Assembly (NCBI GenBank): GCA_023512375.1
Contig: JAILZS010000005.1
Location: forward strand, 1-64,000
DNA length: 64,000 nucleotides
Direction of reading: 5' to 3'
From: Bacillota bacterium
GTDB lineage: Bacteria; Bacillota; Sulfobacillia; JAJZYS01; JAILZS01
Positions 7,791-45,346 of this stretch are shown here, piece after piece. The translations under genes and the position numbers were made by a program. The notes under the pieces are model-generated. The model was not told the DNA's origin. It made no database searches and saw only the letters and a list, made by a program, of their open reading frames with translations. The first letter of the stretch is position 1. Each line of letters opens with the position of its first letter.

Positions 7791-8633
7791 TCACAGGCCG
7801 ATGGCGCGGCCGCGCTCTTCGGCCAAGCGCAGGAGGGCGGCGAGCACGTGCTTGCAGACATGGCCGCCGGCGGTGAAGTCGGGACAGTCGCACTCCACCT
7901 CGACCACGTCCACGTGATACCAGTGCCCGCGCCGGGAGTCGGAGGGCACGCGGCAATGGCGTGCGTCGACGAAGGTCACGCGCGGCACGATGCGCTTGGC
8001 GCGGGCGGCGCGGAGGAGAAGCGACCGCGTCCGTTCGGCGGCTTCGAGTAGGCCGTCATCGGCCAGGCCTTGGGTCAGCTCCTGGAGGCGGACGAGATGC
8101 GGCCCGACCTCGGCCCAAAAGGCCAGGAGGTCGAGGGCGTCGGCGTGGGCGAGGTCCGCATGCCGCGCCGTTGCCGCGGCGAGGGCGGCGGCCAGCTGCT
8201 CGAACTGGGGGGCGAACGTCCGTAGGCTCGCAAGGGAGGCCCGAAGGGAGCGCAACCCGGCCGCCCACGGCCAGCCGCCGCCCTCCGCGAAGTCGCCTTC
8301 ACCGTCTTCGGCGTCCTCTTCCCGCTCGTCTTCGTCTTCCTCGTCTTCTTGTTCTTCTTCTACCTCTTCTTCTTCTTCGTCCTCGTCGTCGTCCCAGGTG
8401 ATCCGGACGCCTTCCACACCGCCGGGCGCCGCGCCAAGCAGCACGTCGCGCGCCAGGGTGAGGGCGATGAAGCGCTCGTGGGCCTGTTTCTTCTCCTCGG
8501 GGCTGGCCGCCTGGTCTGGGTGGTGGAGAAGCGCCGCCCGGCGCCAGGCGCGGCGGATCTCGTCCGGGGTGGCCAAGGGCCCCACCCCGAGGAGACGGGC
8601 GGCTTCGCGGCGATCCACCGGATCACTTCCCAC
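7791..8633 (-). CDS. J-domain/SWIM zinc-finger protein
   Basis: About 280 residues. The N-terminus is a DnaJ-like J domain: EAARLLGVGPLATPDEIRRAWRRAALLHHPD, with the HPD tripeptide (38-40) that stimulates DnaK ATPase. An extremely acidic stretch of about 40 Asp/Glu follows (about residues 80-125), then a helical region. The C-terminus is a SWIM zinc finger, with CDCPDF and VCKH giving the CxC...CxH ligands near residues 258-272. J domains recruit Hsp70, and SWIM fingers bind DNA or protein. I know of no described protein with this combination. It stands alone, convergent with the cytochrome cluster. The GTG start at 8633 was chosen just upstream of the J domain. Confidence 0.75.
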   Translation of the reverse strand: MGSDPVDRREAARLLGVGPLATPDEIRRAWRRAALLHHPDQAASPEEKKQAHERFIALTLARDVLLGAAPGGVEGVRITWDDDEDEEEEEVEEEQEDEEDEDEREEDAEDGEGDFAEGGGWPWAAGLRSLRASLASLRTFAPQFEQLAAALAAATARHADLAHADALDLLAFWAEVGPHLVRLQELTQGLADDGLLEAAERTRSLLLRAARAKRIVPRVTFVDARHCRVPSDSRRGHWYHVDVVEVECDCPDFTAGGHVCKHVLAALLRLAEERGRAIGL

Positions 8634-8787
8634 AGGGGCCGATGCGCGGCCGCCATGCCGGGCGGGTTGGATGCGGGGCGAGAGATCCCGTTGGCGGGCC
8701 GCGGGGAGAGTGGAAGGGCAGGCAGGGCGCGGTCGAGACACAGCGCCGGGAGGGCGCGGGGGAGAGCGGACCTCCCAACTTGCGAGG

Positions 8788-9045
8788 TTACCTCGGCGGG
8801 CGCCCTCGCAGGCGGACGATGTGGGCTTCCTCCTCGCGCATCCATGGCTGGATCGTGTACGCCGCGTTGTTGGCGAAGGTCTGGAGCAGCGGGCGTTGGG
8901 AATAGCCGAAGGGTGGGATATGGAGGAAGACGGCGCGGTCGATGGCCGATTTCACTCTATCGGTCACGAGGCGCGGCGCCGGTTCCCAGTTGTGATCGAC
9001 CGAGATAGATGGACTGGAACGATCACGGAAAATGATACTGGCCAT
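8788..9045 (-). CDS. unknown 85-residue protein or gene remnant
   Basis: The frame starts MASIIFRDRSSPSIS and includes APRLVTDRVKSAIDRAVFLH and NNAAYTIQPWMREEE. The composition looks protein-like rather than like a shadow, and the DNA is less GC-rich than its neighbours, so it is probably imported. It is on the same strand as the transposition genes, just after the hairpin that follows them. It has no clear ribosome site and I recognise no family. It may be a cargo gene or the remnant of one. Confidence 0.35.
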   Translation of the reverse strand: MASIIFRDRSSPSISVDHNWEPAPRLVTDRVKSAIDRAVFLHIPPFGYSQRPLLQTFANNAAYTIQPWMREEEAHIVRLRGRPPR

Positions 9046-9056
9046 CAGGGCGTAGG

Positions 9057-9089
9057 TGGACGGAGAGCCGTTGTGCGGCTCTCCGTCCA
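9057..9089 (-). terminator. perfect hairpin after the transposition operon
   Basis: A perfect 14-bp inverted repeat with a 5-base loop (TTGTG on the plus strand) starts 13 bases past the stop of the last transposition gene. No T tract follows in either direction, so it may be an RNA-stabilising or insulating hairpin rather than a canonical intrinsic terminator. It could also be part of the transposon end. Confidence 0.5.
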
Positions 9090-9101
9090 GCTTCGCGGTG
9101 A

Positions 9102-9536
9102 TCACTTGGACAGGGCGCGGTAGAGGGCTTGGCCGGAGGCGGCCGCCTTGACGACGTCGACCGTGGGCGCAGACGGGAACTCGTGCAGGAGGCAGGCGAG
9201 GACGCCGGGCGTGTCGGCGCCGGTTTGGGAGAGGTGATAGGCCCGCAGGCACATCCGTCCGAACGTACGGTCGACAGGCGGTGGCAAGGGCGTCGGTGAC
9301 ACAGGTGGCGGCACAGGACGCGGCGGTGCCGGTCGCGTCGTCGATCGGTCGGCCAGAACACCGCGGAGGATGCCGCGGAAGAAGGCTCCGGGACTATGCA
9401 CCTCACCTCGCAGGACGCGGGGGTTGTTGCGCATGCGACGCAGGGCTTCCTCGAGGTCGTCGGCGCTAGCGCCTTCTTGACGGCCGATGGCGCGCAACTG
9501 TGCAGGGTCGAGGCCGAGGTCCATGGCCGCGGTCAT
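9102..9536 (-). CDS. accessory protein of transposition module, unknown family
   Basis: A 144-residue protein. The N-terminal half is helical and contains DDLEEALRRMRNNP, the middle is a proline-rich linker of about 25 residues, and the C-terminal third is another small helical domain. The ATG overlaps the stop of the ATPase gene in ATGA. TnsD/TniQ-type target selectors would be expected at this position in Tn7-like elements, but the zinc-finger cysteines of TniQ are absent and the protein is much shorter. It is probably a regulator or target-choice factor specific to this family of elements. Confidence 0.6.
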   Translation of the reverse strand: MTAAMDLGLDPAQLRAIGRQEGASADDLEEALRRMRNNPRVLRGEVHSPGAFFRGILRGVLADRSTTRPAPPRPVPPPVSPTPLPPPVDRTFGRMCLRAYHLSQTGADTPGVLACLLHEFPSAPTVDVVKAAASGQALYRALSK

Positions 9537-10291
9537 CGGATCTCTGCCTCTTCGAGGGCGGCGAGGACGTGCTCGGGCCGGATCTCCCCATCGTCTTGGG
9601 CGAGGCGTTGGCTGAGCCGGCCCACGGTGGCGACGACGCGCGGGATGGCGCGTGAGCGCTGGAAGATGAGCTCGCAGGCCTCTGGCGTGATGCCCACATT
9701 CGCGGTACGGGCCTCGCGTTCAAGGTAGGCTCGGGTCTCTTCCCGCGTGAAGCCGAGGATCTGGCTGTGGCTGGTGACGCGCTGGGCGACGGGCTCCATG
9801 GCCTGCACGCGCAGTTTGGCTGTGAGCGACGGTGTGCCGATGAGGACGACCCGCACCGGCAGGCGGTCGCCGAGCGGGGTTTGCAGCAAGGAGCGCAGGA
9901 AGAGCAGGACCGTGCCGGGCAGATCCTGGGCCTCGTCGATCACGATGAGCAGGCGCCTACCCTGTTCGTGCCAGGGCATGACGAGGCGGCTGAGCTGGGA
10001 GAGCGCGTCGGGCGTGGCCCACTCGGGGGTCTCGCCCAGGGCGGAGAGGATGGCCCGAAGGAGGGCGCGGGGGTTACTGAGCGGCGGCACGAGCGCCACG
10101 GTGAGGTAGCCGCGCGGGTCGAGGCTGCGGACGAAGGCGCGCACCGCAGCGGTCTTGCCGGCGCCGGCCTCGCCGGTGACGATCGCAATGCCGCCGACGT
10201 CGAGGGTGTCGGTGAGGTGACGATCGAGGGCGTCGCGCGAACGGGACGGGAGAAGGTTGTCGGTGGCCAGGGCCTCGAAGGCGGCGGCCAT
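9533..10291 (-). CDS. AAA+ ATPase of transposition module (TnsC/TniB/IstB-like)
   Basis: A 252-residue AAA+ ATPase. The Walker A motif GEAGAGKT lies at residues 40-47, the Walker B motif LLIVIDEAQD near residue 112, and sensor and arginine-finger regions follow (VVLIGTPSL; AQRVTSHSQILGF). The order resembles the ExeA/TnsC/TniB group. In such elements the ATPase binds target DNA and activates the DDE transposase. Its ATG overlaps the stop of the transposase gene, and its own stop overlaps the next start, so the three genes form a tight operon. Confidence 0.88.
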   Translation of the reverse strand: MAAAFEALATDNLLPSRSRDALDRHLTDTLDVGGIAIVTGEAGAGKTAAVRAFVRSLDPRGYLTVALVPPLSNPRALLRAILSALGETPEWATPDALSQLSRLVMPWHEQGRRLLIVIDEAQDLPGTVLLFLRSLLQTPLGDRLPVRVVLIGTPSLTAKLRVQAMEPVAQRVTSHSQILGFTREETRAYLEREARTANVGITPEACELIFQRSRAIPRVVATVGRLSQRLAQDDGEIRPEHVLAALEEAEIR

Positions 10292-11790
10292 CAGAGGCTC
10301 CCCCAGATGGCGTCAAGGTAGTGGCTCAGGTGCTGGCCCTGGCCGTGGCGGCGCACGAAAGCAGCGAGGCGAACTTCCACCTGGGCACGTGCGGGCAGGC
10401 CGGGCCGGGTGAGGTAGACCGAGACCAGTTCTCTTTCCTCCGGGCCGAGCTCACGGTCGAGGACGCCGCCGAGGAGCGCGAGAAGATCGTCCCGGCCGAA
10501 GTCCGGGGCGGGCAGATCCGGGCCGGCGCGCTGGGGTAGGCGACGGACGTAGTCGGCCGGACCGGAGGGCTTGCTGCGTGGCCGTTCAAGCTTGGGGTGT
10601 GCGAGGTGACGCACGGGCACCGACGGCAGCACGGTGAACAGCCGACCGTCGAGGTCGAGGTAGACCTCGCGCAGATCAAAGGGCCGGTAGGCGACGGTGA
10701 CCGTCTTGCCGACGAGGTCGTCGGGGACGCTGTAGCGATTGCCGGCGAGGGCGACCTCCCCGCGCCGTCCCACCTGGCGATCCTCCCGCCATAGGAAGAT
10801 CTCCGTGAGCTTACGCAGATCGGGGTACGGGTTTTGGACCCCGAGGCGGGCGAGCGGCGCCTCCTTGGTCGTGGCGTTGGGGCGGGCGTTGAACTCGTCA
10901 AGGTAGCGCACGAAGTAGGCGTTGAGGTCGTCGAGGGTGTTGATCGAGCCGTCGTCGACGAGGGCTCGGGCGGAAGCCTCGAACTGGCGCTGGCAGGTGA
11001 GAAAGAAGCGCTCGAGGCGCCCCTTACCGGTCGGCTGGCGAGGGGTGGCGTGCACAAGGCGGATGCCCAGGTCACCGCACACGCGCCGGAAATGGTTACT
11101 CACGTAAGGGCTGCCGCGGTCCACGTAGATCGACCTGGGCACGCCGAAACGGGTGATGGCGCGCATGAGGCAATCGTCGAACGCCGGCAGTCGCTGATTG
11201 GGGTAGTACAGGGCCGAGACAATGGCACGGGAGAACGCGTCCATCCAAGCATAGAGCTGGGCGTGCACCTTGCCGACCCAGATGCCCGGCGAGGCGTCGC
11301 CCATCCACATGGCCATGGGACCGTCGACCTCGAAGCGGCGGTAGGCACGCGTAGGGGCTGGTGAGCTGCGACTGGAGAGGCCGCGTTCGCGCAGGATGCG
11401 GCGGATGGTGGAGGGGTGAAGCGTACCAGGCGCGACGAGGGCGCGGTTTTCGAGGGTGCGGATCAGGACGGGGACCGAGGCGGCCGGGGCCTGTTCACGT
11501 AGGGCGATGAGGGCCGAGAGCTGCTCGGGGCTGAGGGCACGGACCGTCCCCTTGTCCTTTCTGGGCTTACGCATGAGCTCCCAGACGCCGCGGCGGGCCT
11601 TGCCCAGGTCGCGGTAGAGGGTGGAGCGGCTTAGACGGCGCGCGCGACCGTCGACATGCACCTCGTCCTTGGTGAGTTCGTCGATGGCGCGCGAGAGCTC
11701 TCCCCGGTCGAGGGTCCGGTGCAGCAGACCGCCGACCAGGCTGAAACGAGCGATGGCATCGAGGTGTGGTTTGTCCATGGACTCATCCAA
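10291..11790 (-). CDS. DDE transposase, TnsB/Mu/IS481-like integrase core
   Basis: A 499-residue transposase with an RNase H-like integrase core. The catalytic triad is visible: D165 in WMGDASPG, D224 in YVDRGSPYV and E260 in GKGRLERFF, giving the DD(35)E spacing. An N-terminal helix-turn-helix region precedes the core, and a Mu-transposase-type C-terminal beta domain follows (GNRYSVPDDLVGKTVTVAY). Pairing with an AAA+ ATPase places it with the Tn7/Tn552/Mu style of transposition. I used the TTG at 11790 because GGGAGGG precedes it; an ATG lies 12 bases further in. It overlaps the upstream zinc-ribbon gene by 8 bp. All catalytic residues are intact. Confidence 0.92.
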   Translation of the reverse strand: MDESMDKPHLDAIARFSLVGGLLHRTLDRGELSRAIDELTKDEVHVDGRARRLSRSTLYRDLGKARRGVWELMRKPRKDKGTVRALSPEQLSALIALREQAPAASVPVLIRTLENRALVAPGTLHPSTIRRILRERGLSSRSSPAPTRAYRRFEVDGPMAMWMGDASPGIWVGKVHAQLYAWMDAFSRAIVSALYYPNQRLPAFDDCLMRAITRFGVPRSIYVDRGSPYVSNHFRRVCGDLGIRLVHATPRQPTGKGRLERFFLTCQRQFEASARALVDDGSINTLDDLNAYFVRYLDEFNARPNATTKEAPLARLGVQNPYPDLRKLTEIFLWREDRQVGRRGEVALAGNRYSVPDDLVGKTVTVAYRPFDLREVYLDLDGRLFTVLPSVPVRHLAHPKLERPRSKPSGPADYVRRLPQRAGPDLPAPDFGRDDLLALLGGVLDRELGPEERELVSVYLTRPGLPARAQVEVRLAAFVRRHGQGQHLSHYLDAIWGSL

Positions 11791-12547
11791 ATGGCATCCC
11801 TCCCACCGGCGCGCTTGGACAGGGCCGGCCGGAGCGCCTATGGGAAGTGGGTGGGTGCAAGAGAAGGTTGGTCGCGAGCGGCAGGTTGTAACTGAGCAGG
11901 AGGTTCAGGGCCACCAGGAGGCCCAAGCCCTGGGGCCGACCGAGCAGCGTTGTCAGGTAGGTGAGAACGTCCGCCTGGGGCACGGCGGCAGGCAGGCGAA
12001 AGAGCGGATCGGTGGTGACGATCGCTTCAGCAGCGAGGCGGACACGATGGATCGTTTCGCGGAGATGGTCGAGCCAGGTGGAGATGCGCTCGGTGCTCAC
12101 GCCCGAGAGCATCGCTGACACCCGGGCCTTGGGTGTGCCGGCGGAGAGGGCCACGAGGGCCTGCTCGATGGTGGTGAGGGCGTAGCGCTTATGTGGGCCA
12201 AGCTGGGGCGGCAGGACGGTGTGGCTGTGGCGGCAGGCGGTGCAGACCACCCGATACACCGCGACGAGCGAGCGTGGCCGGCCGCGCCGGACGGCCTGCC
12301 ATTGGTAGGTGCGTCGGCGGTGACCGTTACCGATCAGGGTGTCACGACCGCAGCACGGACAGCGCCGACCGCCATGGGCGGCGAGATGCCTGGGTCCGTC
12401 CACGTCAACGATGGTCCGCTGTGTCTGGTCGGCTTGGCCGACTCGCGCTACGATGACGATGGCCTGGCGGGTTGCGGTGCCGCGGCAACGGCCCGTACCC
12501 TGAACCCCTTTGCGGTAGGATGCCGATCGGTTTTCCAGGCCACACAT
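11783..12547 (-). CDS. zinc-ribbon/helix-turn-helix protein of transposition module (DUF6431-like)
   Basis: About 254 residues from the ATG at 12547. A zinc ribbon is formed by CPCC (ligands C63 and C66) and CTAC (C102 and C105). The segment from PQLGPHKRYALTTIEQALVAL on resembles the short zinc-ribbon proteins (DUF6431, recalled from memory) found in front of DDE transposase genes in Firmicutes. The next part looks like a helix-turn-helix, and the C-terminus is hydrophobic. It is the first gene of the operon and probably binds the transposon ends or regulates transposition. The start is uncertain because a large hairpin lies just upstream. Confidence 0.7.
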   Translation of the reverse strand: MCGLENRSASYRKGVQGTGRCRGTATRQAIVIVARVGQADQTQRTIVDVDGPRHLAAHGGRRCPCCGRDTLIGNGHRRRTYQWQAVRRGRPRSLVAVYRVVCTACRHSHTVLPPQLGPHKRYALTTIEQALVALSAGTPKARVSAMLSGVSTERISTWLDHLRETIHRVRLAAEAIVTTDPLFRLPAAVPQADVLTYLTTLLGRPQGLGLLVALNLLLSYNLPLATNLLLHPPTSHRRSGRPCPSAPVGGMPFG

Positions 12548-12568
12548 GGCTTCCTGCAACGGAAGTCG

Positions 12569-12603
12569 CCGGGCGCCGACCTCTGGAGAGGATCGGCGCC
12601 CGG
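12569..12603. repeat. 35-bp near-perfect palindrome upstream of transposition operon
   Basis: The arms are 16 bp (11 bp, then 5 bp) with a two-base centre and a single unpaired A at 12592. It starts about 20 bp upstream of the zinc-ribbon start codon. It could stop read-through transcription into the element, act as an operator, or be part of the recognised transposon end. Confidence 0.6.
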
Positions 12604-12868
12604 CTGTTGTCTGTCGGTCGGTGTCACTTAGCATGATCGGAACCCTGTCTGTCCGCCCCACATACCGTTGGCGCTTACACCCAGTGCCCATCGAGCCCCC
12701 GTCGCGCCAGGAGCTGGGGCAACGCCGACGGGTATTCTTCCGTGAGGCAGGAGGACACGCATGCCGACCGCCCCCGCCTTGCCCACCCCTTCGGCGTGCG
12801 GATTCGTGTCGAGACACCATCTCCCTTCCGGCAGGGGCGGGCGCGACCGGGGCGGGCGCGGCGCGCCC

Positions 12869-42293: not shown

Positions 42294-42646
42294 GGGGGCG
42301 AGTCAGCTTCGACATCGGGCGATCCGGACGAGGACGCGAGCCGGGGGGCCGGGCCCCGTCAACAACACGGCGTTCCTTACCTGCCAACCGCAACAGCGAA
42401 CTGGCACTCGCGGCGTAACGCCGCGACGTCCCGGGACCCGCAGGCCCGCGGCGACCTGAGGACGTAACGTAGCGGGATGCCGCACGCGGATGCCCGGCCG
42501 CGGGCGAAAGACGCATCCGGGCTGGGAAGGCGGACGACCCCGTCCTCGGGGGCGCCGCGGACGACAAGCGTACGAGGACTACGCTCGTAGGGGATTCGTC
42601 GGGATGCCCGGTGGACCGGGGGGGCAGTTCCCCCGCGCCTCCACCA
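42294..42646 (+). ncRNA. ssrA: transfer-messenger RNA (tmRNA)
   Basis: A 353-nt tmRNA directly after smpB. The 5' end GGGGGCG pairs with CGCCTCC near the 3' end to form the acceptor stem (one G-U pair), followed by ACCA with CCA encoded. The 5' part has the TTCGAC motif of the tRNA-like D region. The tag reading frame ends in GCACTCGCGGCGTAA and reads ANRNSELALAA, ending LAA as proteolysis tags do. The T arm just before the acceptor stem is odd: a run of seven Gs, then CAGTTCCCCC, instead of a normal TTCGANT loop. Confidence 0.93.
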
Positions 42647-45263: not shown

Positions 45264-45280
45264 GCGGCGCGTACAGGGCG

Positions 45281-45346
45281 ATGGAGGCCGCCCGGGCTAG
45301 GCCCGAACCGCCGCGCATGCGGCTGATGACTCCTAGGGTATCCTAG
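45281..45346 (+). CDS. possible leader peptide ORF of the Ehr-like operon
   Basis: A 21-codon frame (MEAARARPEPPRMRLMTPRVS) begins just after the predicted transcription start and ends with TAG inside the terminator stem. It is rich in arginine and proline codons. There is only a weak AGGG close to the ATG, so translation is doubtful. It is listed because the stop falls inside the attenuator hairpin. Confidence 0.2.
   Translation: MEAARARPEPPRMRLMTPRVS

Follow-up and report, generated by a model that had tools for sequence, protein, structure and literature searches.

The 64,000-nucleotide stretch of Bacillota DNA analysed here (the window) carries what is most probably a complete, cargo-free, insertion-sequence-like transposon of the AAA+-assisted DDE kind, with Tn6049 as its nearest named element, a probably replicative mode of movement, and a small fourth protein, p4, as a presumed accessory. 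The borders of the element, its 6-bp target duplication, its four open and overlapping genes, its recurrence in other genomes and the selection acting on p4 are demonstrated below, and p4 recurrence, selection, borders and target duplication show that the four-gene module is more than a chance arrangement. The features of the element are collected in Table 1.

Table 1. Features of the transposon found in the window (positions in the whole stretch).
Feature	Position	Strand	Remarks
Complete element	8991-12679	-	3,689 bp, TGT...ACA termini; ends by likeness to G007, G014, G013, G009 elements
Target duplication, copy 1, CCCAGT	8985-8990		
Target duplication, copy 2, CCCAGT	12680-12685		
Inner repeat, right end	9020-9048		20/29 bases match left inner repeat
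Inner repeat, left end	12611-12639		
Hairpin after p4, 14-bp perfect	9057-9089	-	no T run
p4	9102-9536	-	144 aa; proline-rich linker between two helical units; no family match
AAA+ ATPase (AAA_22)	9533-10291	-	252 aa
DDE transposase	10291-11790	-	499 aa, D165 D224 E260; rve + Mu-transpos_C; IS481-like
DUF6431 zinc-ribbon protein, conserved part	11783-12466	-	Pfam
Left-end hairpin	12568-12604	-	element positions 76-112

A previous sequence-only reading of this DNA had described an intact operon of four overlapping genes, and four minus-strand ORFs were indeed found, overlapping by 4 bases (p4 and ATPase), 1 base (ATPase and transposase) and 8 bases (transposase and zinc-ribbon protein), within defined borders and a target duplication. 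The operon is headed, as that reading also had it, by the zinc-ribbon gene, whose product matches Pfam DUF6431 (PF20020) with 44.4 bits for a cut-off of 26.6; its ORF spans 11783-12820 (-), the portion past 12679 lying outside the element. Its predicted structure, with a pLDDT of 49, was too poor for a structure search. The expected DDE residues of the transposase, D165, D224 and E260 (DD35E), are present and invariant in an alignment with two relatives, and the protein contains the Pfam domains rve (49.0 bits) and Mu-transpos_C (38.3 bits). Its best NCBIfam match, transpos_IS481, reached 139.8 bits (cut-off 224) and the IS21 model 47.5 bits (cut-off 160), and on these sub-threshold scores membership in either the IS481 or the IS21 family was rejected. 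The ATPase matches AAA_22 with 75.9 bits and, below threshold, TniB (E 2.5e-4, 21.0 of 22.4 bits). In agreement with the claim that TnsA and TniQ are missing, no match to TniQ (at E<=1), TnsA or a resolvase was detected by Pfam among the four proteins.

As the window's own genome (93% complete) holds a single copy of the element and so gives no sign of recent activity, a fact that counts against the explanation preferred here, the borders were taken from relatives; a second, weak match in that genome (34% over 183 residues) corresponds to a different transposase. The right borders of the relatives share a block ending in TACA and the left borders a block starting with TGT, and the ends of the window element were carried over from these blocks, which places the 6-bp duplication CCCAGT directly on both sides. 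The span of 9057-12603 given in the sequence-only reading is a real module, but it runs from hairpin to hairpin, the true element being 66 and 76 bp longer. Two further elements with both ends, in genomes G007 (3,622 bp, 7-bp duplication GTACCGA) and G014 (3,625 bp, 7-bp duplication GCAACGC), contain all four genes, open as in the window, and a target duplication is thus present in the three p4 elements with both ends. Among relatives devoid of p4, the six copies of G090 have identical end bases and five of them show duplications of 5-7 bp, and three of the four G094 copies show 6-bp ones (both by eye). The alignment of borders of homologous loci, proposed as a check when the module was first noticed, yielded TGT...ACA ends and 5-7 bp target duplications. 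No duplication was present in three of the 18 copies with both ends read (L062, L070 and L107), a count that leaves out the broken seventh copy of G090 (L075) and the pair of copies in G035, whose right border was not placed.

When the element and one of the CCCAGT copies are removed, a reading frame on the minus strand becomes continuous through the site, which proves little because this frame has no relative among the 101 genomes searched. No empty site was found, the rejoined flank matching only its own genome among the 101. The inner repeats close to the two ends are likewise weak evidence when taken alone, since 14 of 300 shuffles scored as high as the left-right match in the window, and this likeness was weak in each p4 element (14, 23 and 9 of 300 shuffles as good).

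Another feature of the left end is a hairpin, which in the window, folded with its flanks, reaches -37.5 kcal/mol (z -5.4). In the elements of the window, G014 and G009 and in Tn6049, a strong stem occupies roughly positions 73-112 from the left end, and in G007 a stem was found by folding with G-U pairs allowed, the sequence of the hairpin varying between elements. In G090 and G035 the left stem is located instead at 130-178, and no stem of 8 bp or more was detected at the left end of G094. The hairpin at the left end may protect the operon against transcription or translation coming from outside. The hairpin after p4 was not among the calls of a terminator scan. In addition, a second hairpin was seen directly before the DUF6431 gene in the p4-type relatives L056 and L061 (and by eye in L057).

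The sequence-only reading had placed the accessory protein where a target selector would be expected and had suggested checking for a fixed insertion site. The places of insertion differ: the window copy lies around 250 bp from the gene of ribosomal protein L31 (Ribosomal_L31, 97.6 bits), the G007 copy behind a short frame with a sub-threshold match to Y1_Tnp of IS200 (18.2 of 23 bits), and the G014 copy upstream of a tRNA-Val. As these three complete p4 elements are at unrelated sites, no fixed target was seen, and a fixed-site (att) transposon was ruled against (3/3). The role of fixed-site selector for p4 is further disfavoured by the presence of another ORF or of nothing at its place in 24 of 30 ATPase loci; p4 may select loose or structural targets.

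Several other features were observed around the element and its relatives. On the far side of the L31 gene from the window element, a minus-strand gene (7791-8741) encodes a protein in which a long acidic stretch separates a DnaJ domain (38.2 bits) from a SWIM zinc finger (32.6 bits) at the C-terminus, a pairing of which we know no other example. Elsewhere in the window, Rfam detected a fluoride riboswitch at 45268-45342 (+) with 41.7 bits and a tmRNA at 42294-42646 (+), the latter without an ARAGORN call. Copy L062 (G090:C1:421000-430000) seems to be located, without target duplication, at the edge of a CRISPR-like repeat array with repeated RPRGRVRIET frames.

For the p4 protein of the window, Pfam, NCBIfam and PHROGs yielded nothing at E<=1, which, for these libraries, agrees with the earlier remark that it belongs to no familiar family. 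Six members taken together reached at best E 0.019 in Pfam, with weak HTH_23 matches in two of the six (best E 0.067), and the best match among PDB sequences had an E of 0.046. The six sequences share 39 invariant columns, and p4 is under purifying selection, with dN/dS values of 0.17-0.44 among relatives and of 0.48-0.61 against the window, these last being rough at a dS of 1.05-1.38; p4 is less constrained than the ATPase, for which values of 0.10-0.32 were obtained among relatives. An AlphaFold2 model from four sequences (pLDDT 82.9, pTM 0.41) predicts helices at residues 3-67 and 90-143, with a low-confidence proline stretch between them, and found no counterpart by Foldseek (E<=0.001) in PDB or BFVD. 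In VIA-align, the N-terminal unit matched mostly sigma region 2 domains, with Z up to 6.9 over 71 residues (rmsd 3.3), values in the range of this tool for unrelated helical proteins, and no sigma-factor sequence match to this unit was found by Pfam for the six members. Matches of the C-terminal unit were mixed (PNPase, Z 5.6; BsaWI, 4.9; Pax6, 4.1), all in the chance range of the tool for helical proteins.

Regarding its distribution, p4-type sequence was found, apart from the window's genome, in five genomes of the same order, so that 6 of the 15 genomes of this order contain it. In four of the five (G007, G009, G013 and G014) it follows an ATPase and a transposase of the kind seen in the window, the fifth being G003. 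Searches with a single sequence gave matches in 13 of 101 genomes at E<=0.01, seven of them weak, and profile searches in 11 of 154 genomes of the class, five of them at only E 0.002-0.01, and in 2 of 398 of a phylum sample, both from the same order. No match was detected in plasmids, with the G014 protein as query, or in viral contigs. As far as searched, p4 thus appears confined to one order. Not all of these elements are intact, as the transposase of the G013 and G009 loci is frameshifted or split, and G003 keeps of a decayed p4-type element (L084, about 8755-8991) the C-terminal part of p4 and the right border.

The position behind the ATPase (slot 4) was classed by eye in 30 ATPase loci and then tested on 12 sequences. 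It is occupied by p4 in six loci, by an unrelated family, type B, in seven, by orphan ORFs in G090, G035 and Tn6049 and by a doubtful 58-residue ORF in G094, and holds no convincing ORF in 13, though some of these have open frames. Type B members from G012 (two), G009, G001 and G024 are connected by mutual blastp links (E 8e-8 or better), that of G082b matches a profile of four type B members (E 1.1e-5) and that of G082a matches G082b (E 1.2e-8), all E-values referring to the set of 12 sequences, in which p4 and type B showed no mutual match. Slot 4 has changed hands, because G009 holds both p4 and type B elements and because G082a, adjoining the p4 clade in the transposase tree, has type B there. 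In addition, four p4-clade ATPases, that of the window included, do not have an N-terminal PF segment present in eight other ATPases of an alignment that leaves out that of G012; the ATPase of G082a has AF instead of PF in this segment. The variable fourth slot, with p4, type B, an orphan ORF or nothing, is new here and is a part of the system worth following. A slot that is variable or empty in relatives, together with the weak HTH_23 matches, would also suit p4 as a regulator or passenger of the element and not a part of the transposition machine; we regard this as possible but rather unlikely, given that the 4-base overlap with the ATPase is found in 6 of 6 p4 loci and that strong p4 matches occur nowhere but behind transposases of the window's clade or in a decayed element of that clade.

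The first three genes of the operon occur more widely. Of the 101 genomes, which include that of the window, 45 gave transposase matches at E<=0.001, many of these being partial or distant, and 26 gave DUF6431 matches, against none of 14 control genomes; the complete trio is present in 20 genomes, including that of the window. The same trio was found on plasmids of Thermobacillus, Streptomyces and Rhodococcus. By Pfam, the DUF6431 protein reached 39.4 bits in Thermobacillus and 24.0 in Rhodococcus, under the cut-off of 26.6, and that of Streptomyces was matched only by a custom profile, of which the Thermobacillus protein was one of the seeds, yet this protein is above the Pfam cut-off too. 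The elements of G090, G035 and G094, genomes of the window's class, and those of the plasmids have these three genes in the order of the window element, the ones of G090 and G094 being multicopy with TGT...ACA ends, but none has p4, slot 4 being filled by type B or an orphan ORF or lacking a convincing ORF. No transposase match was found in viral contigs; a first scan of genome contigs gave none and a second gave three loci. In the literature, DUF6431 appeared in one paper, in a gene table entry beside a DDE transposase, and a limited literature search found no published description of the trio.

How such an element might move can be proposed by analogy with MuA/MuB, TnsB/TnsC and IstA/IstB, the models for the roles of transposase and ATPase. 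The transposase would bind repeated sites in both ends and join the 3' ends to target DNA, and the ATPase would assemble on the target and recruit or activate the transposase. The four genes include no TnsA-like nuclease or resolvase, so that the element probably moves by replication, which would lead to cointegrates or circles resolved by the host. Judging from gene position, the DUF6431 protein, as the near-constant third partner, would be the likeliest stand-in for TniQ, as an adaptor or a binder of ends or target, and p4 an optional accessory of the ATPase-target complex. More speculatively, and with little confidence on our part, these elements could be a branch of their own among AAA+-guided transposons, with DUF6431 doing the work of TniQ and slot 4 acting as a swappable cassette that tunes the target choice of the ATPase, p4 perhaps replacing the lost N-terminal segment. 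A widespread AAA+-assisted module without detectable TniQ, in which the zinc-ribbon partner is nearly constant and the fourth gene varies, offers a small set of elements for testing what ATPase-guided transposition minimally requires.

A tree was built from 27 transposases chosen by hand, without G013, which is frameshifted, and without several copies that are short or repeated. In it, the four transposases of p4 type cluster together (100/100) with G082a next (97/93), and a further split (99/99) separates Tn402 TniA and Tn552 p480 from every other row, including those of the trio, Tn6049 and IS481. This holds with the reservation that IS481, Tn402 TniA and Tn6049 sit on long rows of unsure placement, that many inner forks are open and that Tn552 p480 has an odd composition. 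The p480 protein of Tn552, a blaZ element, resembles the window transposase as a DDE transposase of around 480 aa with an annotated Mu-type C-terminal domain, but it groups with TniA, across the tree from the window transposase, and is flanked in its record by recombinase-annotated genes.

Tn7 and Tn5053/Tn402 also combine a DDE transposase with an AAA+ ATPase, and have TGT...ACA ends and short duplications; the TnsA endonuclease is missing in some Tn7-like members. The window element could be a transposon of this Tn7/Tn5053 family, and so belong to the Tn7-like superfamily proper, with DUF6431 or p4 as a very divergent TniQ and a dedicated target, and the shared design of a DDE transposase with an AAA+ ATPase and a small protein that binds zinc, the TGT...ACA ends with 5-7 bp duplications like theirs and the sub-threshold TniB match point in that direction; however, without a TniQ match at E<=1 among the four proteins, with a transposase nearer to IS481 and Tn6049 than to TniA in the tree (on long rows) and with three unrelated insertion sites, we consider it improbable. 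Membership was rejected for Tn7-like elements on the lack of TniQ and TnsA matches, and for Tn5053/Tn402 on the lack of TniQ or resolvase matches and the separation from TniA in the tree. A passage of PMC11406308 describes a TniQ-domain protein as near-universal in Tn7-like elements. It is also hard to believe that an IS481-family insertion sequence acquired the other three genes as passengers and needs its transposase alone to move: transpos_IS481 is the nearest NCBIfam model, ISRm20 falls on the same tree side as the window transposase and an IS481 element with passengers is described in a section of PMC6794481, but the synteny of the trio extends over 20 genomes and to plasmids from other phyla, the genes overlap in the window and the transposase has a Mu-type C-terminal domain. 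That element, TnRErm46, was rejected as a relative, as it is one IS481 transposase with cargo according to the same section of PMC6794481.

The preferred reading, an AAA+-assisted DDE transposon, finds its nearest named element in Tn6049, and a Tn6049-like kind of transposon is already known but poorly described. Tn6049 was reportedly first named in a paper of 2009. A Cupriavidus locus from the plasmid search corresponds to Tn6049, because over 3,196 bp its gene block has 100.0% identity with a part of pHS87a reported as Tn6049. Five copies have the same ends and 3,517 bp, with 4-6 bp duplications in four of them. A passage of PMC4739549 gives the ends of Tn6049 in the pHS87a region as TGTGCaTaAGCA and TGCTcAcGCACA, with a 4-bp repeat, a section of PMC2864759 lists 12 copies, each with gspA as its ATPase gene, and a statement in PMC6210171 (2018) has it that the transposition module "could not be categorized". 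Tn6049 from Cupriavidus metallidurans and Pseudomonas aeruginosa pHS87a shares with the window element TGT...ACA ends and short duplications, a hairpin at 73-109 from the left end, and the layout of a small cysteine-rich protein (cysteines by eye), an IS481-like transposase, an AAA ATPase and a small fourth ORF. In contrast, its first protein has no DUF6431 match, its fourth ORF (90 aa) has no p4 match, and its transposase is distant (custom profile E 4e-45; long branch). A catalogued IS family with the same four genes and known targets had been named as what would overturn the idea of an unclassified module, and the outcome is divided: the catalogued Tn6049 has the same layout, but no relationship of its first and fourth proteins to those of the window was detected, and its module is, in print, uncategorised. 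We define a Tn6049-type grouping by gene order, TGT...ACA ends, 4-7 bp duplications and a left hairpin near position 75, all present in the window, homology of the first and fourth proteins to those of Tn6049 being undetected at the thresholds used. With this grouping, the uncategorised module of Tn6049 gains relatives in other phyla.
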